Positions 48,000 through 64,000 of a DNA stretch of 64,000 bases are shown here, in pieces. The position numbers and the translations under genes are program-made. The notes below the pieces were generated by a model that worked only from the letters and a program-made list of their open reading frames with translations, had not been told where the DNA came from and ran no database searches. Source of the DNA: Pseudobdellovibrionaceae bacterium (GTDB lineage: Bacteria; Bdellovibrionota; Bdellovibrionia; Bdellovibrionales; UBA1609); the NCBI GenBank assembly GCA_023954155.1, contig JAMLIO010000006.1:124001-188000 (forward strand), given 5' to 3'. Every line of letters begins with the position of its first letter. Position 1 is the first letter of the stretch.

Positions 48000-50507
48000 C
48001 TAAACTTCAACCGTAACGGGAGTCTCTTTTGGTGCGTCCTCCTGGTTTTTGTTTATGGCCTGATCCTTAGGTGGCAGTGGTGGAGCCTCCCAGAAGTCCT
48101 GATGCTGTAAGGCCATCTCTAGCTTCTGCGTGTTCACTTCCACTTCTTGGCTATAAGAACTTAGGAGTTTCTCGCTGACCTGTCTTTGCTCATCTAACTT
48201 AGTTCGTAGCTCTTCATAATGGGCACGAATCGAACCGAAAACATTGGGACTTGCCAGAAGTTCATCCAACTTACTGATCTCAGCATTTAAACTTTTTAAA
48301 AACTCGGTCATAGGATTCAAATTAAGAGTCTGACGGATCACTCCCATGCACTCTTCCACTTGCTCGGCAATGAAACCTTTATTGGCATCTAACCAACTTC
48401 TGTAATCCACCAATTTACTTTCTCTGGCCATGTATTCTTTTTCACGTTGCAAGTACTCTTTCACCTTCATTGCAACTTCTTTGGCCATAGATTGTGCAGC
48501 TCTTGCAGAATGGTTTGCCGTTTCCACATCTGCCTTTAAGATATGATTCTCAGCTAAAATCTTCTTCTTATCTTCGTCAAAATGAGCCACCTTAGCCTGC
48601 AAAGCCACAAGCTCTTTTTCTAATTTCCGACTCTTCATCTGTTCAGCAGAAAGTTCTTTTTGCATTTCAGCCAAACTTTGGCTCGCACGACTTCCTACAT
48701 CTTTAAGGTGTTCCACCTTGGTTTCAAGATGTTCAGCACGTTTTTCAAGAGTTTGTTTTTCTCTCACAGCATCCTTATGCGCAAGCTTTAACTCTTCAAA
48801 ATTATAGTTTAGTTCCTGCTCTATTTTTTTAAGCTTGGTCACCTGATGGGTAAGGTCTTCTTTTGTGCCCTTAAGCTCAGCAAGTTCAAGAATGTGCTGT
48901 TCAATGGTTTGTTTTTGCTCTTGGATCTGCTCGGCATTGTCAGCCAAGGTCTGTTCCACTTCAACCATGTTTTCCTGATAGGACTTCATGGTGGCGGTCT
49001 CGTGCTTTAAGTTTTCTTCTAAGAGTACAATCTTATGCTGCTGTGTTTTACGGCTATCACTGAGCTTCTGGACATGCTCTTTTAGTCTCTCAATCAAGGC
49101 CAGTGCTTGAGCCTTCTCGTCCACTTCTTTTTGGATCGCCAGTTGGGCGTTGTCTAATTCGGACTTCTGTTGATAGATGGTCTCGGTCAAGGTCTCGTTG
49201 GCATTGTTTAAAAATACAATCTGCTTGGTCTTTTCATCAAATTGAATCTCTAAATCCTGAAGGCGTTTCACCACCTCAGTGTACATTCTGATTCTTTCTT
49301 GAATCTCTGTGTTTTTCTGAGCCACAGTCTGCATGAGTTGCTCTTCAAGTTCCTGCTTGGCAGCCGTCATGGATTTTAGCTCTTTTTCCAGAGTAAAAAC
49401 TCTTTGCAGATGACGTTCGATTTCTTTTTTATTCTTAGCCACTTCAGCGTTTAAAGCATCAATCTTTTGAATGAACTTCACTTCGCCCGCAATACGGTCT
49501 TTTTGTTTTTCGATGACGGTTTTACACTCTTTTAAAACTCTTTGTAACTCATCGTTTTGAGTCTTAAAGGAAGCCAACTCTCGTCTCTGTTCATCAAAAT
49601 TTGTAGTTAAAGTTTTATTTTGCTCTCGTAAAACCAAGTGTTTTTGATGAAGCTCTGCACCTTCAGTGGCTTTAGTTTTAAGCTCAGTCCCAAGCTTAAC
49701 CAAACTTTGCTTTTGCTCTTCGATCAGTCGAAGTTGCTCAGAGTGCTTCTTTTGTAATCCCCTCACCTCATCCACATACGACTGTTTATGGGCGGCGATC
49801 TGCTTGATCTCTTCAGATAAGTTTTTAGTTAAGACCGTAAGACGATCGTTTTCAGCCTTGATCTTTTGACTTTGATCTTTCACCGCAAGACCTTCTTGTT
49901 CCATCTGCGCTAAAGTCTTTTTAATCTTTTCTTCTTGATGCTTGAGACGGAAGTTTTCTGCTTTGTACTGGTCATTGATCTTTTTAAGTTTTTGAACAAT
50001 ATCGTTTACGGCCTGAGTCTTTTTGGTGTCAGCGCTGCTTTTAGAGTTTAACTCTGTCACTAGTTTTTGAATCTGTTGAGCTTTGCTCTGAAGCTCTTGT
50101 TCTTGTTTTCTATAGCTACGGAAAAGACGAGTGTATTCTTCTAACATCTTGGCGTTTTTATTCTGTAAAAGAACGTTCTGTCTTTCTAACTGTGCATTCA
50201 TGGGTCCTACTCCTACAGATCCTGCGCGCGCGGGAACGCGTTGTGAATTTTGAGAAACGGCCTGAGACTGGGCGTAATGCGAGTCTCGAGAAACAGTCTG
50301 TGGTGAGGTATGACGTGAGTCCAAAGTCCCTGCGCGCGACTGTCTGTAGTGAGATGTCTCAGCATAGATTGGTGGCGCTGAAGCAGCTCGTGAATGTGCA
50401 GCTGGCCTCGCCCCAGCCATGTCAAACTCTAGGTCAGATACGGTCAGTGTATCGCTTAGCTCATCTAACAGGTCTAAAAAATCGTCTTTTTGATATCCTT
50501 GCTTCAT
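48000..50507 (-). CDS. Large coiled-coil protein, possible cytoskeletal or scaffold filament
   Basis: 835 residues with no signal peptide. After a short acidic N-terminus (DDFLDLLDELSDTLT) and a low-complexity segment, about residues 110-780 are nearly continuous heptads with Leu, Glu, Lys and Gln, interrupted only by short kinks. This is what intermediate-filament-like and scaffold proteins look like. Its ATGA start overlaps the stop of the GYF-like gene, so the two are produced together. Confidence 0.75.
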   Translation of the reverse strand: MKQGYQKDDFLDLLDELSDTLTVSDLEFDMAGARPAAHSRAASAPPIYAETSHYRQSRAGTLDSRHTSPQTVSRDSHYAQSQAVSQNSQRVPARAGSVGVGPMNAQLERQNVLLQNKNAKMLEEYTRLFRSYRKQEQELQSKAQQIQKLVTELNSKSSADTKKTQAVNDIVQKLKKINDQYKAENFRLKHQEEKIKKTLAQMEQEGLAVKDQSQKIKAENDRLTVLTKNLSEEIKQIAAHKQSYVDEVRGLQKKHSEQLRLIEEQKQSLVKLGTELKTKATEGAELHQKHLVLREQNKTLTTNFDEQRRELASFKTQNDELQRVLKECKTVIEKQKDRIAGEVKFIQKIDALNAEVAKNKKEIERHLQRVFTLEKELKSMTAAKQELEEQLMQTVAQKNTEIQERIRMYTEVVKRLQDLEIQFDEKTKQIVFLNNANETLTETIYQQKSELDNAQLAIQKEVDEKAQALALIERLKEHVQKLSDSRKTQQHKIVLLEENLKHETATMKSYQENMVEVEQTLADNAEQIQEQKQTIEQHILELAELKGTKEDLTHQVTKLKKIEQELNYNFEELKLAHKDAVREKQTLEKRAEHLETKVEHLKDVGSRASQSLAEMQKELSAEQMKSRKLEKELVALQAKVAHFDEDKKKILAENHILKADVETANHSARAAQSMAKEVAMKVKEYLQREKEYMARESKLVDYRSWLDANKGFIAEQVEECMGVIRQTLNLNPMTEFLKSLNAEISKLDELLASPNVFGSIRAHYEELRTKLDEQRQVSEKLLSSYSQEVEVNTQKLEMALQHQDFWEAPPLPPKDQAINKNQEDAPKETPVTVEV

Positions 50508-51001
50508 ACTTTTTCCGTTTTCGCTTTTTTATTAAGGTCTATACGCTCGCCTTCCATATCCGTAATGTCATCTTTGATTCTGAAGTTTAACTTTGACTTG
50601 ATGGACTCATACAAATCCGTCACGCCTGTAAGTCGGGCCTTAGATTCTGCCTGCTCTGAATGGGCTTGGGATTGATGTTGTTTATAAAAATCTGTCAGAT
50701 GCTCTCGCTTTATGCCTGAAATTTGCACAAATTCCTCATCCGACATTTTAAGAGCTTCCTCGGCGATAGGGACATTGAACACTTCCATGTCTGCAATCTT
50801 TGACCACGTCGACTGCCCTTGCTGCCATACATGGTGATCTTTAGAGAGAAAGCCCCTTCTTAAGAAGATCAGAACACTATTAGTAGTGAAAGGACCAAAA
50901 TGTTTTTGTTCTCGAAAGACAAACCAGCTGTCAGCCTTCGATCTGGCTGTTGGGCTGGAGTTGGTTTTTTTTTCTGGACATTGTGACTCTTCACTGTTCA
51001 T
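50504..51001 (-). CDS. GYF_2/DUF4339-like protein
   Basis: 165 residues, cytosolic. Residues about 25-75 (WFVFREQKHFGPF, VLIFLRRGFLSKDHHVWQQG, WSKIADM) match the GYF_2 (DUF4339) fold, which in bacteria is a small adaptor. The rest is charged and helical. It overlaps the coiled-coil gene by 4 bases. It may bind a proline-rich partner, but none is identified here. Confidence 0.75.
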   Translation of the reverse strand: MNSEESQCPEKKTNSSPTARSKADSWFVFREQKHFGPFTTNSVLIFLRRGFLSKDHHVWQQGQSTWSKIADMEVFNVPIAEEALKMSDEEFVQISGIKREHLTDFYKQHQSQAHSEQAESKARLTGVTDLYESIKSKLNFRIKDDITDMEGERIDLNKKAKTEKV

Positions 51002-51186: not shown

Positions 51187-51837
51187 CTAAAGCCGAAAGT
51201 GGAAGCCCACCAATAAACCCATTTCATTCATAGAAGCAGGAACCGTTGAGTCGCTCATGATCGTGGTATTGTAAAACAATTCGGGCCTAAGAATCAGATT
51301 CGACTTCCATTGCCAGTCGACTCCAAAGTGAGCACCAAAATACACCCCTGAAGAAGAGATAGTTTTAACCACTTCACCTTCACGACTGGCACTCCCGTGC
51401 GCCACACCTGTACCAAACCCTGCAAAAGGAGCCCAACCTCGCACAACAAAAGAGGTCGACATGTCTTTGTGAGGAATGAAAGGCGCTGGATTCTTAAAAT
51501 ATCTTCTGACAGTAAAGCCCGAAAAACCCATTCCCATTGAGAATGGTCCCATGCGCCCACCTCGACGATGCCCTAAGGCCACACTCCACTTTTCGTGAAT
51601 GAAAGTTTCAATGCTGATCCCCAACATCAAAGGCCCTTCAGTCCTTGATAAAGAGTACACATCCCCCGCTACAGTGACATCTTTGTTCAGCGTCTGATTA
51701 CCAAATCCAGCAGATATCCCATAAATAAAATCAGGTTTAAATTTAAAGCCCGCATGGGCTTCTTCAAAGCCCAAACCCACAAAAATGAGAACTACAGATA
51801 ATAGCCAACGTGAATTATGCAGCAACTTGACCCTCAC
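51187..51837 (-). CDS. Outer-membrane beta-barrel protein
   Basis: About 216 residues starting at a GTG at 51837; the longer frame begins at an ATG at 51867, which has GGAAG too close to it. From the GTG a signal peptide (WLLSVVLIFVGLGFEEAHA) stands at the right place. The mature protein has glycine-rich alternating strands (IYGISAGFGNQ, MLGISIETFI, GYFG-like stretches) and ends FHFRL, a typical barrel C-terminus. It overlaps the 3' end of the FliG-like gene and may be co-translated. Confidence 0.7.
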   Translation of the reverse strand: MRVKLLHNSRWLLSVVLIFVGLGFEEAHAGFKFKPDFIYGISAGFGNQTLNKDVTVAGDVYSLSRTEGPLMLGISIETFIHEKWSVALGHRRGGRMGPFSMGMGFSGFTVRRYFKNPAPFIPHKDMSTSFVVRGWAPFAGFGTGVAHGSASREGEVVKTISSSGVYFGAHFGVDWQWKSNLILRPELFYNTTIMSDSTVPASMNEMGLLVGFHFRL

Positions 51838-53689
51838 TGTCTTCTGCTTGAGCTTTAGGCAGAACATCTTCCAATATCACTTCGCCTCGTTTAACTAAAT
51901 TTTCCAACTTCTTATTTAACAAGGCCAACTGCTTTTCTTTCTCTGCTACTGACATAGTGTCGGGCTGACTAAGATCGTCTGAAACTACTTTTTTAGCTAA
52001 AGGCGACAAAGAGGCCAATACTTTGTCCATGATCTCTGGTATCACTCTGACCAAAGCCGTGATCTCTTGGTTGTTTGCACGTCTAAATAAAATTTCCGCA
52101 CTTGTTCCCTGCCACTGTCCAATAAAAGCAATATGTGCGTGGGTGCGTTTATAGTTTTCCACCACCACACCTGTAATTTGCGGTAAGGTCTGACACGCAT
52201 CCAATATACTCATCACACTCACAATTTTATCAAACGCAGAGGACATAGACACAGCCGATTCATCCATTTTTGTTTCAAAATAAGGAGCAATGTCTTTTTC
52301 GATCTGTTGTAAGTTATTTTTACTGATCGAATCCATTTGCGCTGCTGTTTTAAGAACATCCAACTTGGCTTCGGCATCTAATTTATCAAAATAACTTTTA
52401 CGCATTACATCTGGCATATAGGTCGAAACCACGGCCTGAATGTCAGCACTGTTTTGTAATAACACTTTGCTAACCGTACTGAATGAAGAGCTTCCCACAA
52501 AAGAGAAGGGGCGATGCAAGGTCTCTGAACCTAAGTTCACTACCGCAACCATATCCCAATATGTTTTACTCATCACATTGTGCTTTTCTTGATCACTCAT
52601 ATCGTGCATTTTGGCAAAGATCTCACCCATCTGTTCACGGTGCTCTTTGGGAATCGGTAAGGTTCCCAATACACTTCCAGATATTTCTGCAAAACATGCC
52701 AATTGCAAGTACCCACTCTCTCCGCGTTCACACCATTGGGTGACAAGGTTCTGTAAATCCGAAGTCACTTTTGGTGCTAACTCTTTAATTTGTGAAGTCA
52801 AATGAGCATTCTTTTCTACATAAAGTGCGACTTCATCCTTAGAGGTGGTTTGTGCCACAGCTTCACTACCTTGAGTTGCTCCACCGTTTTCAGTTTTATT
52901 TTCAATGTTGATCTCTGTAGATGGACCTTCTGCGCTTTGGCTAGAAGCTCCATTGCCCATCAAGATTCTCCACAAGAATATTCCCATTAAAATAGCAAAA
53001 GCTAAAACCAAATTGCCCGCTAAGCTTTGCATCTCTTTAAGTTTTTCCATAAAGCTTTTTTGCTTCTTGGACTTAGCACTGCTTTTACTTGCCAGACTGG
53101 CCACACCCGATTCAGGTTTTGCCCCATCGGGCTGGTTAAGGATTTCCTCTGCAGAGTCTGCGTCCTGAATAAATTGTACTTGTGACTTTCCAATAGTACC
53201 AAACTCTTCTTGCACACGAGCCTGTAACCACTCTGACACAATCTGCTTGATCCCATCACCCATGTCAGGTACAAGCCCCACCATAAATTCAATTTTACTT
53301 ACAGAAAATTTTTCTAGAGGATTTTTGAGATTTGATGACCCAAAATTAGCGTAACTTGCAAATAACGTGTCAGCGTCCAAATACCCAAGATCAAGCTCAG
53401 TATAAAGATCAGAATTTGCATTTTTATTATTGGCTCCAACAAGAGCTTCGTTAATAGTTAGATCTAGGCGAGCACCCATACTAAAATTTTCATGACTGAT
53501 AATAGACGAAAGCTCCTGAGAGTACCTGCGTACTAACATGTCTTCTAAGGCAGCTTTGGCACCAATAACTTCAGCGCTTTTTAAAGATCCTCCAGCAGGT
53601 CTTTCTTGCGCCAAAGCTGACAGGCTTAAAAACATGAAGCACATGTATGTAAAGATTGATAAGGAACGCAACAACTTTTGTCTCGGCAT
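51815..53689 (-). CDS. Membrane protein with FliF-like periplasmic part and FliG-like cytoplasmic part
   Basis: 624 residues from the ATG at 53689, one base past the upstream stop. A signal-like N-terminus (to about 28) is followed by a periplasmic region 40-175 that looks like a ring-building domain of FliF (AALEDMLVRRYSQELSSII, VSKIEFMVGLV). The single membrane span is at 223-243. After a linker, residues 409-470 resemble FliG middle (NSADIQAVVSTYMPDVM, LDAEAKLDVLKTAAQM, QIEKDI) and 530-605 FliG C-terminal (SLSPLAKKVVSDDL, KKLENLVKRGEVILED). These are pattern matches. No flagellar gene is near. A rotor- or scaffold-like role in an envelope complex is inference. Confidence 0.6.
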   Translation of the reverse strand: MPRQKLLRSLSIFTYMCFMFLSLSALAQERPAGGSLKSAEVIGAKAALEDMLVRRYSQELSSIISHENFSMGARLDLTINEALVGANNKNANSDLYTELDLGYLDADTLFASYANFGSSNLKNPLEKFSVSKIEFMVGLVPDMGDGIKQIVSEWLQARVQEEFGTIGKSQVQFIQDADSAEEILNQPDGAKPESGVASLASKSSAKSKKQKSFMEKLKEMQSLAGNLVLAFAILMGIFLWRILMGNGASSQSAEGPSTEINIENKTENGGATQGSEAVAQTTSKDEVALYVEKNAHLTSQIKELAPKVTSDLQNLVTQWCERGESGYLQLACFAEISGSVLGTLPIPKEHREQMGEIFAKMHDMSDQEKHNVMSKTYWDMVAVVNLGSETLHRPFSFVGSSSFSTVSKVLLQNSADIQAVVSTYMPDVMRKSYFDKLDAEAKLDVLKTAAQMDSISKNNLQQIEKDIAPYFETKMDESAVSMSSAFDKIVSVMSILDACQTLPQITGVVVENYKRTHAHIAFIGQWQGTSAEILFRRANNQEITALVRVIPEIMDKVLASLSPLAKKVVSDDLSQPDTMSVAEKEKQLALLNKKLENLVKRGEVILEDVLPKAQAEDSEGQVAA

Positions 53690-53690
53690 T

Positions 53691-54365
53691 TTACTGTCCA
53701 CCAGCACTTGGCTTATTATTCGATGTTGGTACTCGGGTTGGAATTTTTAATGTTTCACGTACTTTACCTGCCATATCCACAGCAGTTTTAAGTTCAGGAT
53801 TTACCGCTAATGCGCTTTCATACCACTTCAAACTTTCCTCAAACTCACCACGCGCATAATGAATTGCCGCTTTCATAGAAAGAGCACGATCAAACTGAGG
53901 GTATGCCGCAAGAACTTTATCTATCTCAATCAAAGCACGCTCAAATTGTTTGGTGTTAGCAAACTGTTGAGACAAAAATAATCCATCAACAAGATCTTTT
54001 GCTGTTTTCATTTCAACTTCTTTATCAGAAGGATCAAGCTTAAGAACAATCTCTGCACCTAGGCTGCCTGCTGCCTGTACTGGAACCCAAATGTCTTTAG
54101 TTTTAAATCCTTCCTTTTTGATAATGATATTTACCAAACCACCAGGATGATTTTGCCCTTTTAGATGCTCATCTAATTCTTCACCACTTTTACTTAGAGG
54201 AGTCATTCCTATGGTTTTAGGTTCATTTGTGCCTGAATCAACTATAAATACTTCTGCTTGATCTGGCTCTGTGACAACTTTAAATGAAAAAGAGGCACAT
54301 CCATAGAGACTTAGAGTTACTGCGGCTAAAACTAATACTTTTATTTTAAACAATTGGTTTTCCAT
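53691..54365 (-). CDS. Lipoprotein with PEGA-like and TPR domains
   Basis: 224 residues, lipobox LYGC (Cys23). A PEGA-like beta domain (VVTEPDQAEVFIVDSG, GLVNIIIKKEGFKTKDIWVPV) spans about 30-110. Two or three TPR motifs follow (FERALIEIDKVLAAYPQFDRAL, FEESLKWYESALAVNPELK), suited to protein binding. It starts the run of three envelope genes with the FliG-like protein and a barrel, with one base between its stop and the next ATG. Confidence 0.78.
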   Translation of the reverse strand: MENQLFKIKVLVLAAVTLSLYGCASFSFKVVTEPDQAEVFIVDSGTNEPKTIGMTPLSKSGEELDEHLKGQNHPGGLVNIIIKKEGFKTKDIWVPVQAAGSLGAEIVLKLDPSDKEVEMKTAKDLVDGLFLSQQFANTKQFERALIEIDKVLAAYPQFDRALSMKAAIHYARGEFEESLKWYESALAVNPELKTAVDMAGKVRETLKIPTRVPTSNNKPSAGGQ

Positions 54366-54623: not shown

Positions 54624-57600
54624 TTATGGATTTACATTCACCTTTAAGAACGAACCCCTAAATCTTGTGGCACCAGCAGTAGGAGTGATTCTGGTCATAT
54701 ATCTTCCTTGTGCCCCCAGAGTCAGAGCAGGCGACACACGCATTTGCATCACTTGCGAGTTCACCGTAAAGGTTCCCCCAGACACCACACTCATATTAGC
54801 TGTGCCAGAATCATCTGTGCTGACCAGCAACGAGATATCGGATTGGTCCCCAAGAGACTCCGTTCTTGCTAACGTATGAAAGTAAACCTGTGGACTTGTA
54901 AAACTATCTAAGTCTAAGAAAGCCCGTTCTTGCGTTAAAGACGCCTGTGTTGTAATTCCTTCCGCATAAGAGTTCATTCTAAATACAGACTGAGCCTTTT
55001 TCAGGTTTTTCAGCTTCACCCACAGACCTGCTTTATACAAACTTACACTTCCATCATCGCAGTTCAGTTCGCAACGAATCACTGCACGATAAAATTGGTT
55101 TTCATTAGGCACACCAAAATATGTTGCTCCTTCATTAAAGGGAATCGACGCCATGGCGATATTAGGACTTACAAATCGTGTCTCTGTCATAGGCACCAGC
55201 GCATTGGTGTTGATGTTCTGTAACCCTAATAACCCTTGTGATGTACCCTGAGTGGCCACTAAAGCTTCTAACTCCCAAGCGTTGTACTCTTCGATCTTAT
55301 AAAGAGATTGAGCCTGACGTTGGAACCATAATGACTGATCGTATTCAGAGTAGTTGGTACTCGACGTTGTGTAAACCGATTGCAAAGCATCCTCAGTTGA
55401 ATTTCCATCTAATGCCAATAACGGATAATACAACTTAGTTTTGGTGGCATTCACTTGATTGACCAAAATTCGAGCCGCAAAAACATTTAAATCTGAATTG
55501 TAGGTGGTGCCTGACAACAGAACACGGTACACATCACGACCTGCATTTAAAACCACTGTCGTTCTTAAGCGAAGAGCTTCATTTTGATTTGCAGGAACAA
55601 TGATACTTCCTACAATATTGTCACTGCTATCTACAATAGAAACAGCTCGCGATACGGTATCAAAATTACTGGCAATAATTTCAAACTCATAATTTTGAAC
55701 CCCATCATAGTCAGTAGAATCAAAGGACACCTGCGATCTTGCAAAAACCAAATCTTCAAGACCTGAAGAGGCTAATGCAATGTCTAGCATTTCTATTGGG
55801 ACTTGCAGTTTAATATGTCCGCTGGTCACAAGTGAGGCTTCATTCGATACGATAGCACTCCCTGCTCCTGACATAACGGCTTCAACAACATAAAAATACT
55901 GCTTACTCGACTCTACATGTTCATCAACAAAGCTGTCTACCGTCACATTTCCAATAGGTCCGTAAGGTCCACCAGAAATTTCACTACGAAGAATTCTGTA
56001 AGAATCTGCTCCAGCCACTAGGTTCCAGCTTAAATTGACTCCTGTAGGCACATTCGCTGCAACTAAGTTAAATGTCGGTGCCACTATCGTGACTGCAGCA
56101 ACATCAGAATCTAGCGAAGGAACACCAGATGAGTTAATGGCTGTGATTTTATAATAATAAGTCTGTGACGAAGATACAGTGGCATCAACATAGGTGTCTA
56201 CAAGACCAGTAACTTGAGCTATTTCGGCAAATGGTCCACTTGGATTTGTAGATCGCCAAACCTTGTATCCTACAACATTAGGAACAACAATCCATTGCAA
56301 GTGCACAGAAGATAAAGTCAATGCTTGTGCGAAAAATCCTTCTGGTTTTAATGGAGCTGATCCTGCACTGACAGCATCAGACACTGCGGATTGTGACATC
56401 TTAATTCCACTGGACCTAATGCCTTGATATTTATAGTAGTAGGTTTGCAATGGATCTATACTGCTGTCTGTATAACTTGTTGAAGAGTGGTTAGGAACAA
56501 GCACAGAAAAGTCGACACCATTATCCGATCTCCATATAGTATACCCTACAGCAGAAGGAACACTCGCCCATGTTACAGAAATAGAATTTGTAAGAGGAAG
56601 AGCCTCTGCTAAGGGCTTAGGTGGCTGCGCTTGTACATACAGAGTTGCTTCATTAGACGCCGCACTTTCTACGCTTCCATTTACGGCTTTAACTATAAAA
56701 TAATAGTTGGTGTTTGCGGATAGTCCACTAACAGTCACTCCATTAGTACTACTTGTTGTTAAGTGAATAGAAGAATACATCCCTGAACTTGTGGAAACAT
56801 AAACATTATATCTATTTCCACCTCGAGTTCCAATCCACGATAAGACCGCTTCAGTTCCTGTACCATTATTTTCAACCACTAAGTTTGAAGGGGCCAAAGG
56901 CGTTAGACCAGGAGTCACACCCGTGGTCATCGGTGTGAACATTTCTAGCACTCCATAGTCCACTTCCAAACGATAAAAATAAATTTGACCATTGCTGACT
57001 GTGGTGTCTACGTAGCTTGACGAGGTATAACCCGCCACTAGAGTAGTAAAGCTCACACCATCTAAAGATCGCTGAATCTTTACACTGGTGGCCCCCGCTG
57101 GCAACGACCAGCTCAATTCAATCTGTCCATCACCCTGAATTGTGGCAGGAGCTTGTGATGGGGCTTGGTAAGTCCAAATTGACACGGCGGCGGATTCATA
57201 TCGATTCTCGCCAATGTTAGCCGCCACTTTGATAAACACCTCTGTCGCTGGAGTAAATCCAGAAACATTGGCACTGGTGGCAGCAGTAGTCTGCCTTAAA
57301 GTATAAGGTCCTGCAGCATTTGTGGCTGAATATAAAGTATAATTCGTTGCAGTTGCTACTCTTGGCCACTCTGCACGTACTGTTGTGGAATTCACAAGAG
57401 ACAACGACACATTTGAGGGCATAATTGCCAAAGTGCTTATCCCAGAGACCACGGCCGATCTTGTGCCCATATCATTATTGTCAAAGTTAAACCTAGCTGC
57501 CACTCGATAGTAATAGCCCTTGTTCGGATCAATAGATGAGTCCGTGTAAGATGACAAAGTTGTATTATCAATAGCAACAAAACCACCATTGGCATTTTCT

Positions 57601-60600
57601 GACCTATAAACAATATAATCGGATGCCCCAGCCACATTATTCCAACTTAAATCTAAATGGTCATCGTATGCCGTTAACCCCAAACCTAAAATAGGCGAAT
57701 TTCTGTACATCACCACATTGCTTTCTGCAGATTCAGTATCTCCCCAATTTGCCGTTACTTTGTAATAATTAGTTCCCGCCACTGTGGCTGGATTTTGTAC
57801 ATAGGCATTAGTATATGTACCTGGAAGTTTAGTAAAAGGACCCGATGGGTTTGTTGCCCTATAGAGATTAAATCCATTATAATAATGAGGTGGCGTCCAC
57901 GACAGCAACACATCTCCTGTCTCGCCAGTGGTTAATGTCAAATTCATAGGACCTGCAGGAGATGCGGCCGCTGTGGCCCCTTTAATATCTGAATTGTGCC
58001 CTATGAAAACTTTAATCGGATTTCCTTCAACGATCTCTGTAACGTAAGCTTGCAAATAATAATAAGCCCCACTGCCATTAGGAATAGAATCCACATAACT
58101 ATTGGTGGTGAGTCCCGTTGCAATTTTCACGTAATCCCCATCATACCTGTCAGACCTAAAAAGATCGTAGTATGTGGTATAGGAACTTAACCTTGATGGT
58201 TTAGACAAAGTATTCCAAGACATGATGATTTTATTATCACCACCCTCAACCGTCAGAGTAGAAGGACTTGAAGTAGGATAAACACCAATAAAATTGGCAG
58301 GAACAGAAATGTCATCACCCCACGCTGTTGTCACTGTAAAATAATGGATCCTACCGTCATAGTTATTGTAACATCTCACAGCTTTAGTATCTGTGGTTGA
58401 GGCTACTACTGTGGCGATCGCTGGATTATTTTCAGCATCATAAATATTAAATCTTTCATAATGGGAAGGGGCTGTCCAAGACATCTCTACCCCACCACCA
58501 CTACAACTACCGATATCTTTAGGCACTAATGAAAAGTTTAGTGGCGCATCAGGAACCTGTCTTGGAACCGCAGACGCTACATTTGATTGCAAACTAACTC
58601 CTGATGGATTTTGAGCTGTCACAATATAGTAATACGTCTGTCCATCTGTAAGACCATAATCTGTGTAGGTTGTTGTTGTGATCGAAACACCTAAATCTAC
58701 AAATGGACCTGCGTACTGTGTAGATCGTCCAATTTTATAAACCATGTTTTGTGGGAAACCACTCCACGCCAGACGCACTCTTTGACTTGTAGCATGTGCC
58801 GTTAAATTCGCCGCTTGAATAGGTGGAGGAGCACTGGTGGTCACAGATGCCACATCTGAGTTTTGGCTTCGTCCCGTATTGTTACTTGCAAAAACACGGT
58901 AATAGTAAGTGGTGTTGTCACTCACATGAATGTCTCTATACAGATTTGATAATAGCCCTGTAGTCACAATAGTAAAAGGTCCGTCCGCATATAGAGATCG
59001 TTCTACTGTATACGTAGGAACAGGTCTCGAAGTTGTATCTGGAATCCATTGAAAAGAAACAGATCCATCCGAATTATTAAAAGCTCCCATAACTTGTGGA
59101 GCTTGATCGTAATGCACATAAGTGATCAACTCTGCACAGTTTGAAAGTGTTCCCACTTCATTCACTGTTTGCCCATATAAAGTGGTGCTTGCATTTTCTG
59201 GAACTTCCACAGCGAATCCGCTTCCCATAAATGCTGTCGGCGAACCCGTTGCCAATAAGTCTGTACACGTTGCATTGGTATACACCGACATACTCACTTT
59301 ATTCATAAAATCATGGGAAAATGTAAAATTACCTGAAATAAGAATTTTATTATTATAAGATGGGGGCTCAGGTGTCACAGAATAAAAAACTGGAGCACCT
59401 GGAACCAACGCATTATGGGTGTAATCTGTTAGGAAAGTACATGCCGTTGCATTCCCCGCAGCATCAAATGATCGAGCATAAATATTAGAAATATTGTTGG
59501 GAGGAAGATTTAATAAAATTCCCGTTGTTGAAAACTCTTCTGGGGTTCCCTCTCCAATATTATTAGAACACATACTGCTATCATAAAGCACCACACGATT
59601 AGGCACTAATTGACTGGCCATATTATGTAAAGCCTGTCCAAAAATAAGAGGTTCATAAGACTGATTATTGGGAGACAACGGCGTTGTGCTGGTATAGGTC
59701 GGATCAATAGGAGGGACAGTGTTATGAATATACTGAGTGATCAATACACATTGTGATGGGTTTCCATAAACGTCTACGGCTCTTCCATAAATATCTGTGG
59801 TTGAATTTGCAGACAAGGTCACTTGCACACCTGATGCTGTAAATCGACCTCTGGTTCCTGACCCTAAAAGCGAGGTGCATGACATATCTGAATATAAAGA
59901 CACTGTGGCAATACTACTGTCAGCTGTACCTATAATGCTGGGAGTGGTACTGGCATTAGAAGGTGATGTAGGAAAACTTCCATAAAATCCTGGAGCTGGA
60001 GCCTCAACCGTAGAATGATCATAGGTCGCAAAGAATGTACACTCAGAAATGTTTCCTTCCAAATCTGAAGCCTGCACATAAATTGCCGTGATGGCGTTAT
60101 CATCGACAGACACTTCTATGCCCAGACCAGGATCGACTAATTCATCTGCTGTCCCCGACCCGATCACTACTAAACATTCTGAATCTTTGTACATCACTAA
60201 ATTCGTAGTGCGAGGCTCAACGGTTCCAAAAAGATGAGGTGTCGTACTGGAATTATTAGGAGAGGCAGGAAAAGAGTGGGTGAATGCAGGTGGATCAGGA
60301 GGAATAATATTATACATGTATTGGGTCAGAAGCAGACAAGGTGATCCATTATTAGCATGATCAAAAGCCTTCACATAGATGGACGTCTCTTCGTTGGTCT
60401 TCACACCCACTGCCACACCCAAGCCTTCAAATTCGGCTTTAGTGCCCATACCAATCATATTATTACAAATGTGAGAATCATAAAATTCCAGTCTCGTAGT
60501 ATCTGCCGAACTAAAACCTTTCATTCTCGGTAGTGGAGTCACATTACTCGGTGATGTGGGGTCAGCTGAACTAAACGTGGGATTTACAGGAGCAATATTA

Positions 60601-61577
60601 TCATGGGTGTATTGGCTTAAGAGCACACACACCGAAGGATTGTTCATATCATCAAAAGACTGAGCGTAAAGTGATGTTGTAGAGTTTGCCGTCAACTCCA
60701 CTTGAAAGCCTGTTGTGGCAAATTCTGTAGGACTTCCCTCTACAAGCAAGTTAGAACATGCAGGGTTTCTATAAACTCTGATCACTTCTGAGTCTACCCC
60801 ACCTTGAATACGTAACGTTGGACTCACGACTTGGTTACTTGGAGACAAAGGCACAATAGATAAAAGTTGTGGTGGGTCCGACAGGGCATCAGAGTGTTTA
60901 AATTCTGTAAGCCTTGTACACGCTGAATACTGATCTAAGTTGTCTTTAGTGCGCGCATAAATTTCTGTAGTTGTATTGGGTGTCAAAGTTAAAACAATAC
61001 CTGTGCTTGAAAATGCACTTCTTGCTCCTACCGCTAATGGGTCCGTACATGCTATATCACTGAAGAACTCAATGGTTGAAGTCAAAGGAAATGCTGTTCC
61101 TGAAAGTATAGGTGAAAATGTGTCTCTGGATGGAGACGCTGGAATCATACCTGAAAGCACAGGCACATCAGGCTCTAAAACAGGGACTTCGTAAGCCACA
61201 ACAAGATCACAACTGGCTTGGGTTTGAACACTGACATAAATATCAACCGTAGGGTCTCTGGGCAGTACCAAGTCTATACCCTGGGCTCTAAACGCATTGA
61301 TTGTCATCTGTCCCAAAGGCACACCCATGCAGTCTGAATTGCTATAAAAGTGTAAGAGGTCTAAACCTAAATGCCCCGATCCCACCATACTGCCATCTGC
61401 ATGTACGTTAAGAGTATGAAGATTATAATCCGTAACACTGATGGTACTAAAAAGAACAGGAGATTCGCTTGATGGTTTTTCTGCTAGCTTTCCGTCGCGA
61501 CACGAAGATAGGCCTAAACTTACTGAAAGCAGCAAGAAAAGCCAGTGTAATTTTAGGTCACGTACCAGAACTAACAT
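54624..61577 (-). CDS. Giant lipoprotein with Ig-like and fibronectin type III repeats
   Basis: 2317 residues with lipobox LSSC (Cys26). The first part has about eight related units of 85-95 residues, most with a SPSN turn, a first Cys in the strand and a second Cys near the end (one disulfide each expected). About twelve fibronectin type III-like repeats of 90-100 residues follow, each with a -YYYRV- or similar strand. The last 330 residues form a separate domain, with no sorting signal seen. It is a likely surface adhesin. It begins 14 bases after the FG-GAP/VCBS gene and is co-transcribed with it. Confidence 0.85.
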   Translation of the reverse strand: MLVLVRDLKLHWLFLLLSVSLGLSSCRDGKLAEKPSSESPVLFSTISVTDYNLHTLNVHADGSMVGSGHLGLDLLHFYSNSDCMGVPLGQMTINAFRAQGIDLVLPRDPTVDIYVSVQTQASCDLVVAYEVPVLEPDVPVLSGMIPASPSRDTFSPILSGTAFPLTSTIEFFSDIACTDPLAVGARSAFSSTGIVLTLTPNTTTEIYARTKDNLDQYSACTRLTEFKHSDALSDPPQLLSIVPLSPSNQVVSPTLRIQGGVDSEVIRVYRNPACSNLLVEGSPTEFATTGFQVELTANSTTSLYAQSFDDMNNPSVCVLLSQYTHDNIAPVNPTFSSADPTSPSNVTPLPRMKGFSSADTTRLEFYDSHICNNMIGMGTKAEFEGLGVAVGVKTNEETSIYVKAFDHANNGSPCLLLTQYMYNIIPPDPPAFTHSFPASPNNSSTTPHLFGTVEPRTTNLVMYKDSECLVVIGSGTADELVDPGLGIEVSVDDNAITAIYVQASDLEGNISECTFFATYDHSTVEAPAPGFYGSFPTSPSNASTTPSIIGTADSSIATVSLYSDMSCTSLLGSGTRGRFTASGVQVTLSANSTTDIYGRAVDVYGNPSQCVLITQYIHNTVPPIDPTYTSTTPLSPNNQSYEPLIFGQALHNMASQLVPNRVVLYDSSMCSNNIGEGTPEEFSTTGILLNLPPNNISNIYARSFDAAGNATACTFLTDYTHNALVPGAPVFYSVTPEPPSYNNKILISGNFTFSHDFMNKVSMSVYTNATCTDLLATGSPTAFMGSGFAVEVPENASTTLYGQTVNEVGTLSNCAELITYVHYDQAPQVMGAFNNSDGSVSFQWIPDTTSRPVPTYTVERSLYADGPFTIVTTGLLSNLYRDIHVSDNTTYYYRVFASNNTGRSQNSDVASVTTSAPPPIQAANLTAHATSQRVRLAWSGFPQNMVYKIGRSTQYAGPFVDLGVSITTTTYTDYGLTDGQTYYYIVTAQNPSGVSLQSNVASAVPRQVPDAPLNFSLVPKDIGSCSGGGVEMSWTAPSHYERFNIYDAENNPAIATVVASTTDTKAVRCYNNYDGRIHYFTVTTAWGDDISVPANFIGVYPTSSPSTLTVEGGDNKIIMSWNTLSKPSRLSSYTTYYDLFRSDRYDGDYVKIATGLTTNSYVDSIPNGSGAYYYLQAYVTEIVEGNPIKVFIGHNSDIKGATAAASPAGPMNLTLTTGETGDVLLSWTPPHYYNGFNLYRATNPSGPFTKLPGTYTNAYVQNPATVAGTNYYKVTANWGDTESAESNVVMYRNSPILGLGLTAYDDHLDLSWNNVAGASDYIVYRSENANGGFVAIDNTTLSSYTDSSIDPNKGYYYRVAARFNFDNNDMGTRSAVVSGISTLAIMPSNVSLSLVNSTTVRAEWPRVATATNYTLYSATNAAGPYTLRQTTAATSANVSGFTPATEVFIKVAANIGENRYESAAVSIWTYQAPSQAPATIQGDGQIELSWSLPAGATSVKIQRSLDGVSFTTLVAGYTSSSYVDTTVSNGQIYFYRLEVDYGVLEMFTPMTTGVTPGLTPLAPSNLVVENNGTGTEAVLSWIGTRGGNRYNVYVSTSSGMYSSIHLTTSSTNGVTVSGLSANTNYYFIVKAVNGSVESAASNEATLYVQAQPPKPLAEALPLTNSISVTWASVPSAVGYTIWRSDNGVDFSVLVPNHSSTSYTDSSIDPLQTYYYKYQGIRSSGIKMSQSAVSDAVSAGSAPLKPEGFFAQALTLSSVHLQWIVVPNVVGYKVWRSTNPSGPFAEIAQVTGLVDTYVDATVSSSQTYYYKITAINSSGVPSLDSDVAAVTIVAPTFNLVAANVPTGVNLSWNLVAGADSYRILRSEISGGPYGPIGNVTVDSFVDEHVESSKQYFYVVEAVMSGAGSAIVSNEASLVTSGHIKLQVPIEMLDIALASSGLEDLVFARSQVSFDSTDYDGVQNYEFEIIASNFDTVSRAVSIVDSSDNIVGSIIVPANQNEALRLRTTVVLNAGRDVYRVLLSGTTYNSDLNVFAARILVNQVNATKTKLYYPLLALDGNSTEDALQSVYTTSSTNYSEYDQSLWFQRQAQSLYKIEEYNAWELEALVATQGTSQGLLGLQNINTNALVPMTETRFVSPNIAMASIPFNEGATYFGVPNENQFYRAVIRCELNCDDGSVSLYKAGLWVKLKNLKKAQSVFRMNSYAEGITTQASLTQERAFLDLDSFTSPQVYFHTLARTESLGDQSDISLLVSTDDSGTANMSVVSGGTFTVNSQVMQMRVSPALTLGAQGRYMTRITPTAGATRFRGSFLKVNVNP

Positions 61578-61591
61578 TTGTTTATTAACCC

Positions 61592-64000
61592 CTATAATCC
61601 CAATAAGGTATGCAATTCCCCACTGGAGTTATCCAATACCAATATATCCAAAGTTCCATCTTTATTGACGTCTCTGATATACACCTTATCTGCAGACGCA
61701 TTGACGGGAATGGTTTTTGTCGTGCTATAAGTACCCGTTGCAGTACCGTAAAGAATAGTCAGTTCACGCTCAGGACCATTACTCACAATAATATCTTCTG
61801 TCCCATTATTATTAAAATCACCCTTTGCCATACTGGTAGGTTGAATTCCTGCCGTGAAATCTTGTTTAGGCTGGAAGGTGCCGTTACCATTACCTTTTAA
61901 AATACTCACCGTTGAGTCCATTGAATTTGACACAGCTAAATCTACAAAAGCATTATTATCAAAGAAGCCCGCAAGAATCGCATTAGGACTTGCACCCACA
62001 GCGATAGGAGTTGCAGGTAAAAATGTCCCATTACCATTGGCGATCAGAATACTTATGCTATCCCCTGACTGATTATTCACAGCAAGGTCTAAGTGCATAT
62101 CTGAATTGAAGTCCGCAGCCACAATACCCATAGGCTGTGCCCCGACTGGTAAGTCCGAACGCACAGGATAACCTGTGTCTTGAGCCAAGAAAATAGAAAT
62201 AGAATTACTACCACTATTGGTGGTCACGATATCTAATCGACCATCATGATTTAAGTCCTCGATAAGCAGAGCAGAAGGAGCAAGTTGAGTCGGATAAGAT
62301 TGTGGAGACTGGAACGTTCCATTGCCATTGCCTAAATAAATTCTAAAGGCATTTAAATTTGAAAGAGTAAGCACCACATCTAAATGTCCATCCTGATTCA
62401 AGTCCACAACCACAAGGTCAGAAGGGCTTCCACCCAATGCCACGCTTCCCAAAGAAGAGTACATTCCGTTTCCAAGTCCTTTTAAAATCAAAAGTGCATT
62501 TGCAGAAGCATCCGCAACAATTAAATCTAAAATTCCATCTTCATCAAAATCGCCACTGGCCAGTACAGCAGGGGCTGACCCTACACTCATTTTATATCCA
62601 AACTCGGCATTTTGATTAGGTAAGACTTGTACTTTGGATTCTGAATTTGAAGACAGAATCAAATCAGGCGTACCATCTCCATTTAAATCTTCTAAACTTA
62701 ACGCTAACACGCTAGGCATGGTTTCAAACATACTACTTAAATCAAAAGCTCCATTGCCAAAACCAATGAAAACAGAAATTGTGGCTTCATCGGCGTTAGA
62801 CACCACAAGGTCTAAAATTCCATCCGAATCTATGTCTCCTGTAGCCATGGCTAAAGGCATAAGACCTGTCGAAGCTGTGATGGCCCCATTAAAAAATCCA
62901 TTTTGATCATTGATATGAACAGCAACTTGATTATCTATACTGTTCAGAACAGCCACATCTAGGTAACCATCCAGATCAAAGTCGGCGGCTAAGATATCCG
63001 CAGGCGCTGTACCCACAGGCATTGTGCCATTAGAGATAAGTTCTCCCGAAGCATCACTAAGAAGCACGGTGAAATTGTCATCCGACGCATCTAAAACAAC
63101 TAGGTCATCCCCATACAATTGATCAAAATTTCCCACTGCTGCTTTGATAGGGAATGATCCCACACCACGAAATGCAGGGGCCGAGAACCCACCCATACCA
63201 TCACCAAGCCGTACCGTTACAAGACCCGAAGAAGAAAAGATAAAAGCTAAATCTTTATATCCATCACCGTTAAAGTCCCCAGCTACACCAGATGTGATGG
63301 CTCCCTCAAGGCCATCTAACGCACGGTAAGATACAGGTGCAAAGGTCCCATTACCAATTCCCTCTAAGAATCCATATTGACCCACACCATTACAGGTTAC
63401 GATGATATCTTTATCACCATCACCATTAAAATCTTCTAAAATAAAATCACTGACACCCAAGCATAGACTTACAATCTTATAAGTGAATCTAAACAATCCA
63501 TTGCCCGCACCGAGCATCACACTGATAGAGCGTTCGTTGGCATTTAAAACCAAAACATCTTTATGGCCGTCTCCATCCAGATCAGAATCACTGATGATTT
63601 TTCCAGCACCACTTCCCGCAGTAAAAATGCTATCAAAATTATTGGTGTTCTTATTGATAGATCGAACCTGAAAGTTCAGTTTTGGCCTTCCACTCCCTGC
63701 CACATCAGGCAAGTCTCCTAAAACAGGTTTAACCGCCACATACGAACGCACCGAAGAAACACCTTGGCGCACATTCATCTGTACAAAACCCTGCGCATCT
63801 GTACGTTGTACGATAGAGTCTAGCAACTCAACTTGCCCAGCTACAGTTTGAAAGGTCACATCCACGTTAGACACTGGGTTTTCGTATCTGTCCACAAGCT
63901 GAGCCATCAGAGGAGTGAGCAACTCTAAGCCGATTTGTCTTTGTTGGTTGTCACCACTCACTGGAGCAAAAACAAAATGATCTGGAGCATCAGCGATCAC
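61592..64000 (-). CDS. FG-GAP/VCBS repeat surface protein (N-terminus outside window)
   Basis: At least 802 residues; the frame runs to the window edge, so the start is outside. A first visible part (FQTVAGQVELL, DAQGFVQMNVRQG) looks like an invasin-type Ig domain. From about residue 130 about fourteen repeats carry FG-GAP/VCBS loops such as DSDLDGDGHKD, DFNGDGDKD and DFDEDGILD, each able to bind calcium, as in integrin-type beta propellers; two propellers would fit. It is probably secreted and sits next to the giant lipoprotein. Confidence 0.85.
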   Translation of the reverse strand: MIADAPDHFVFAPVSGDNQQRQIGLELLTPLMAQLVDRYENPVSNVDVTFQTVAGQVELLDSIVQRTDAQGFVQMNVRQGVSSVRSYVAVKPVLGDLPDVAGSGRPKLNFQVRSINKNTNNFDSIFTAGSGAGKIISDSDLDGDGHKDVLVLNANERSISVMLGAGNGLFRFTYKIVSLCLGVSDFILEDFNGDGDKDIIVTCNGVGQYGFLEGIGNGTFAPVSYRALDGLEGAITSGVAGDFNGDGYKDLAFIFSSSGLVTVRLGDGMGGFSAPAFRGVGSFPIKAAVGNFDQLYGDDLVVLDASDDNFTVLLSDASGELISNGTMPVGTAPADILAADFDLDGYLDVAVLNSIDNQVAVHINDQNGFFNGAITASTGLMPLAMATGDIDSDGILDLVVSNADEATISVFIGFGNGAFDLSSMFETMPSVLALSLEDLNGDGTPDLILSSNSESKVQVLPNQNAEFGYKMSVGSAPAVLASGDFDEDGILDLIVADASANALLILKGLGNGMYSSLGSVALGGSPSDLVVVDLNQDGHLDVVLTLSNLNAFRIYLGNGNGTFQSPQSYPTQLAPSALLIEDLNHDGRLDIVTTNSGSNSISIFLAQDTGYPVRSDLPVGAQPMGIVAADFNSDMHLDLAVNNQSGDSISILIANGNGTFLPATPIAVGASPNAILAGFFDNNAFVDLAVSNSMDSTVSILKGNGNGTFQPKQDFTAGIQPTSMAKGDFNNNGTEDIIVSNGPERELTILYGTATGTYSTTKTIPVNASADKVYIRDVNKDGTLDILVLDNSSGELHTLLGL

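Follow-up and report, generated by a model that had tools for sequence, protein, structure and literature searches.

The genes at positions 51,187 to 54,365 of the window (the whole 64,000-nucleotide stretch of DNA analysed) are interpreted as the core of a non-flagellar rotary motor of the cell envelope, driven by MotAB stators and moving surface adhesins, perhaps for gliding, a reading to which we assign a probability of roughly 0.7. It is based on gene content and linkage, domain homology, co-conservation and independence from the flagellum, from which we infer the ring, its rotation, the path of the force and the output.

The three genes were confirmed as open reading frames on the minus strand, in the order PEGA/TPR lipoprotein (53691..54365), FliF(RBM3)-TM-FliG hybrid (51815..53689; 624 aa), which is the proposed one-polypeptide rotor subunit, and predicted outer-membrane β-barrel (51187..51867). 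The ATG of the hybrid gene is one base past the stop codon of the lipoprotein gene and the start of the barrel gene overlaps the end of the hybrid gene, indicating that the three genes are read as one operon. The lipoprotein is predicted to be anchored in the outer membrane; its assignment in the first-pass annotation was borne out by a lipobox (LYGC) in the sequence and a TPR_2 match (E=1.6e-7), whereas the PEGA part of the name, given in that annotation, had no Pfam match. Homologues of this lipoprotein are present in almost all complete hybrid loci. Structure prediction also agreed with the barrel that had been proposed, giving 8 strands (pLDDT 81) with OmpA/NspA-like folds as the best matches.

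The unit had been taken to comprise three genes and proved much larger, with giant lipoproteins and MotAB in the same block. A giant fibronectin-III (FN3) repeat lipoprotein of 2317 aa, a proposed surface adhesin, is encoded at 54624..61577, followed by an FG-GAP/VCBS-repeat giant lipoprotein (61592..64000) that runs past the window edge. On the other side of the three genes, a GYF-domain protein (50504..51001), paralogous to a 474-aa GYF protein that the same locus encodes next to motAB, is probably associated with the module, and an 835-aa coiled-coil protein (48000..50507), resembling a 1116-aa coiled-coil protein beside motAB, is tentatively placed with it; all four genes are on the minus strand. 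Beyond the window on the same contig (G000:C6), genes encoding LysM-lipoprotein, coiled-coil and GYF-domain proteins are followed by a MotA-MotB pair (C6:202,899-204,376, MotB truncated by the contig end), 27 kb from the hybrid gene in the same gene block. In the loci of relatives, the three genes are accompanied by genes for an NHL/FN3 protein and for two lipoproteins, one with FN3 repeats (~2300 aa) and one of the FG-GAP type; Ig-like and VWA domains are encoded in module loci as well. The two GYF-plus-coiled-coil gene pairs flank the window-genome locus (48000-51001 and L077:9751-14545), as if duplicated.

The hybrid had been described as joining a periplasmic ring-building-like domain, one membrane span and FliG-like middle and C-terminal domains, and profile searches and structure prediction agree on this architecture. 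With the lone sequence the FliG similarity was weak (Pfam FliG_M, E=0.001; phmmer against T. maritima FliG 1lkv, E=0.004, residues 393-606), and a search of the genome contigs with the single sequence gave no match. With a family profile made from an alignment of 14 hybrid homologues (A1, 14 rows), the FliG structure 1lkv was found in the PDB at E=1.2e-19, and genuine flagellar FliG was found in the genomes of relatives down to E=4e-18. In hhalign, the cytoplasmic part was aligned with FliG of the same phylum over FliG residues 18-340, covering N, M and C (probability 98.5, E=2.6e-15), the negative controls staying at background level, and chance is excluded as the source of the similarity. 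Pfam searches of the individual members gave FliG_C in 12, FliG_M in 8 and FliG_N in 3 of the 14, and the invariant PF of the hybrids (P394 F395) aligns to the PFSF of the FliG linker. Compared with the PDB, residues 394-606 of the AlphaFold model match FliG M+C at Z 11-12, the M domain alone superposing at 1.8 Å over 79 residues. The FliG-like region (residues 284-609; 51863..52840, minus strand) was thus recognised correctly for M and C, and its scope was drawn too narrowly, since the N domain is probably included too. An MgtE_N identity of the helical part was rejected, with weak MgtE_N matches in 4/14 members against FliG_C in 12/14, and the PDB profile search found FliG and no MgtE. The hybrid profile also matches open reading frames of 230-320 aa over FliG_M/C only (e.g., G048:C1:851417 and G061:C1:828453), in some genomes at a distance of a few kb from the fliG of the flagellar cluster, and these are possibly MgtE_N-like flagellar proteins.

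The AlphaFold2 model of the hybrid (11 sequences; mean pLDDT 69, lower in the linkers) shows a signal peptide (~residues 1-28; 53606..53689), seen as a hydrophobic N-terminus with helix 3-23, a periplasmic domain of alpha-beta-beta-alpha-beta topology (residues 35-177; 53159..53587), a membrane helix (residues 213-243; 52961..53053), a disordered linker and a cytoplasmic part that is helical throughout, all on the minus strand. Residues 35-177 match the FliF RBM3 domain in many PDB entries (Z 8.5-10.5; rmsd mostly 2.6-3.0 Å over ~95-100 residues). With OsmC/Ohr folds ranking next (Z 7-8), the RBM assignment draws on topology, the consistent ranking of FliF and the adjacency to the membrane helix. 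Because Pfam YscJ_FliF does not match this N-terminal domain and its hhalign alignment with FliF is weak (probability 8%, E=0.004, at the start of RBM3), the FliF claim is founded on the predicted fold, from which the domain is predicted to be a ring-building domain of the FliF RBM3 type. Exactly one membrane segment follows the N-terminus in 55/57 hybrids; the full FliF plan of RBM1, RBM2, RBM3 and two membrane helices is absent, one RBM3-like domain and one TM being present.

The linked stator genes are of the flagellar type. Searched against the PDB, the profile of the linked MotA matched PomA/MotA structures (E=4e-51) and gave no ExbB/TolQ match at 1e-5; with PomA/MotA the only matches at that threshold, an ExbB/TolQ-type energiser identity of the MotA component was ruled out. 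The linked MotB retains the channel Asp and has a peptidoglycan domain of the OmpA type, and the pair therefore does not match TolQ/ExbB- and TolR/ExbD-type subunits. When 46 MotAs from the genomes compared here were placed in a tree with E. coli MotA as outgroup, all 38 module-linked MotAs fell into one clade of 41 rows (support 96/69) together with three unlinked MotAs, and five stand-alone MotAs, presumably flagellar, fell outside it; the root of this tree is uncertain because the E. coli branch is long.

Residues for torque generation are largely kept on both sides. The torque helix equivalent (51968..52003, minus strand) carries the acidic pair D571-D572, aligned with E. coli FliG D288-D289; D or E occupies the D289 position in 54/57 hybrids and the D288 position in 34/57, and R or K occupies the position of E. 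coli MotA R90 in 42/49 linked MotAs (numbering from an E. coli MotA sequence verified at the four named residues only). A second charge pair, E98/R281, is only partly kept, and the FliM-binding motif EHPQ is intact in 0/57 hybrids. The kept torque residues together with the lost EHPQ suggest that the hybrid is driven by stators without the flagellar switch, and the rotor-stator pairing of the hybrid with the linked MotAB is well supported.

Hybrid and stator genes also occur together. Dozens of loci have either the contiguous order PEGA-hybrid-barrel-MotA-MotB or all of these genes gathered in a single locus, and in most relatives motA-motB directly adjoin the genes for the lipoprotein, hybrid and barrel. 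Among 140 genomes of the order, 41 carry the hybrid with a linked MotA, 2 the hybrid only, 1 the MotA only and 96 neither; the two thus occur together in 41/44 genomes with either (p=8.6e-32, a value that overstates independence because the 140 genomes are related). Divergent hybrids turned up in the MotA-only exception (G064) in a later search. The set of genes, sought in other Bdellovibrionota, was found across the phylum: a scan detected the hybrid in 58/369 genomes (E<=1e-20), three families of other classes carry it with the same companions, and homologues in named records are from Bdellovibrionia/Bdellovibrionota MAGs. The module is patchy inside the genus Bdellovibrio. An iterative profile search gave 55 hybrids, including those of divergent modules, several per genome. 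Divergent PEGA-MotA-MotB modules (L171-L176, L179, L181, L184, L186, L189 and L190) mostly contain a hybrid-like protein of 550-700 aa and some a barrel; a single genome can harbour two to three distinct modules, and G064 has three linked MotAs.

The first-pass annotation had suggested an envelope-spanning machine with a rotor-type part, and the linked MotAB, the conservation across the phylum and the missing flagellar markers support this. In the proposed mechanism, the hybrid would be a natural FliF-FliG fusion reduced to essentials and would serve as the rotor of an ion-driven machine spanning the envelope. Ring assembly would fall to the RBM3 domain in the periplasm, and the single helix would cross the inner membrane to connect with the N-M-C part of FliG, which would form the torque ring beneath it. 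This torque ring would be turned by a dedicated stator, MotA5-MotB2, held on the peptidoglycan through the OmpA-type domain of MotB and acting through the acidic torque-helix residues of FliG (D288/D289) and the conserved Arg of MotA (R90), both in E. coli numbering. Since there is no dedicated FliM/FliN and EHPQ is lost, rotation would probably be in one direction. The PEGA/TPR lipoprotein and the small outer-membrane barrel may take up the motion of the periplasmic ring and hand it on to the giant FN3/FG-GAP/NHL surface lipoproteins, the likeliest use being movement of surface adhesins, that is, gliding or travel along surfaces and prey.

The output is where an alternative fares best. The rotor and stator may be correctly identified and the lipoproteins moved for prey attachment, invasion or the assembly of a surface layer or polymer, a real possibility that we hold at clearly less than even odds. 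The FG-GAP, NHL, FN3, Ig-like and VWA domains of the loci suit adhesion, and the sharing of one genome by several different modules agrees with this. The GYF and coiled-coil companions, for their part, favour gliding, as they are reminiscent of the proteins GltJ and AglZ, with which myxobacteria glide. In B. bacteriovorus HD100, several Agl/Glt-type gliding clusters are found at other loci than the module (PMC12546842), so gliding need not use the hybrid machine; it is nonetheless an attractive output because a 2026 review lists the machinery and motor of Bdellovibrio gliding as unidentified and a major open challenge (PMC13104615).

An accessory role in the flagellum, with the hybrid as an extra ring or alternative rotor and MotAB2 as one flagellar stator of several, is unlikely. 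The module lies outside any flagellar locus, as had been noted at first reading: the loci carry genes for outer-membrane and surface proteins, and flagellar genes are absent from them. No flagellar FliG, FliF or FlhA was found in the window genome (G000, 99% complete) or in a second module-bearing genome (G021, 97%), and FliM/FliN (FliMN_C) gave nothing above the cut-off in these two genomes and was found in flagellated relatives; the flagellar-marker searches gave strong matches in control genomes and flagellated relatives. The single MotA of the window genome at E<=1e-20 is the module-linked one; because a further, divergent PEGA-MotA-MotB module (L181) is present in G021, the argument from a lone MotA holds cleanly for the window genome only. 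The lost FliM motif EHPQ likewise argues against a flagellar role. In its favour, the majority of module-bearing genomes are flagellated, and a 2011 paper on HD100 (cited in PMC11323537) reportedly credits each of the three MotAB pairs with a part in swimming by the single flagellum. One of the genomes with the module (G061) is almost certainly that of HD100, and there the module is bordered on one side by purF, confirmed as such and designated Bd3009 (PMC12546842), and on the other by a MotB-MotA pair whose place in the gene count corresponds to Bd3020-Bd3021, named MotB2/MotA2 (PMC11323537). Expression of MotA2/MotB2 was strongly altered on deletion of fliL bd1076, which would fit a flagellar stator, whereas FliL Bd1076 interacts with MotB3 and not with MotA2 or MotB2 (PMC11323537). 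A flagellar remnant was ruled out by the conservation across classes, the stator clade of its own and the surface partners.

A non-rotary energiser, in which MotAB and the hybrid exert a pull on proteins of the outer membrane like TolQR-TolA or ExbBD-TonB, serving transport or the stability of the envelope, would suit the outer-membrane lipoprotein and barrel partners and a protein that crosses the membrane once and extends into the periplasm next to a proton channel, and is quite improbable given PomA/MotA-type stators without an ExbB/TolQ match at 1e-5 and a partner with FliG and RBM3 folds, which in the flagellum make up a driven ring and not a pulled linker.

To our knowledge, the machine as a whole matches no known system, its engine parts being homologous to those of the flagellar motor. 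It shares with that motor the FliG N-M-C homology, the RBM3-type domain, the PomA/MotA and MotB homologues, the torque-helix acids and the MotA arginine. It differs in that the FliF and FliG parts are in one polypeptide with one RBM and, past the signal peptide, one membrane helix, that no FliM/FliN, export apparatus or FlhA is needed (these being absent in the window genome), and that the partners are outer-membrane and surface lipoproteins. The Agl-Glt/Nfs systems of Myxococcus, with homologous clusters in Bdellovibrio, also combine a proton-channel motor with an envelope-spanning complex containing outer-membrane proteins, and the GYF and coiled-coil companions are presumably a further likeness. 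Their genes and loci are different, and the module has a FliG-like rotor and a PomA/MotA-type stator with a peptidoglycan-binding MotB; the linked MotA, of PomA/MotA type at 1e-5, does not match the TolQ/ExbB-type motor protein AglR of Agl-Glt. Engineered FliF-FliG fusions in Salmonella and Vibrio have the same domain order (RBM3, membrane helix, FliG), but are laboratory-made, act inside the flagellum and retain the full FliF (RBM1-RBM3) with two membrane helices. Rotation, in the CW direction, persists in a Salmonella FliF-FliG fusion-deletion mutant whose C-ring is smaller (review, PMC9389320). The GldLM motor of type IX secretion and gliding in Bacteroidota is likewise a rotary motor powered by ions and is described as moving surface adhesins, but resembles MotAB without being homologous, and no FliG-like rotor is named for it (PMC13104615).

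A 2025 survey of MotAB and its non-flagellar homologues names FliG solely as the flagellar rotor (PMC12505986), and the open-licence literature searched holds no account of a non-flagellar FliF-FliG hybrid with MotAB, in line with the earlier statement that no described example was known. We put at about even odds the wider proposal that hybrid-MotAB is an undescribed class of envelope-spanning rotary motor, widespread in Bdellovibrionota, driving giant surface adhesins without a flagellum as a gliding or prey-engagement motor of these predators, or one of several, with MotAB2 of HD100 belonging to it and not to the flagellum. If the reading is true, torque generation of the flagellar type is not confined to flagella, and a stripped-down rotor with its own stators powers another machine; this would be a minimal rotor-stator pair, possibly turning in one direction, without switch, export gate or axle. 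It would offer a testable motor candidate for surface movement or prey contact in Bdellovibrio and a system for studies of torque generation and of the origin and re-use of the flagellar motor, and the motAB2 genes of a model predator would be read differently.

Two further groups of genes were observed. A VWA-domain family and a 390-aa partner adjoin Bdellovibrio-type modules (L070:17108-18514, L068:18228-19637, L120:17792-19153 and others) and are probably further components of the module. At three loci (L177, L178 and L182, in G118, G011 and G099), MotA-MotB pairs of the module-linked clade have no PEGA, hybrid or barrel gene nearby; their MotBs are large (377-529 aa), and these pairs may represent a further non-flagellar MotAB system.
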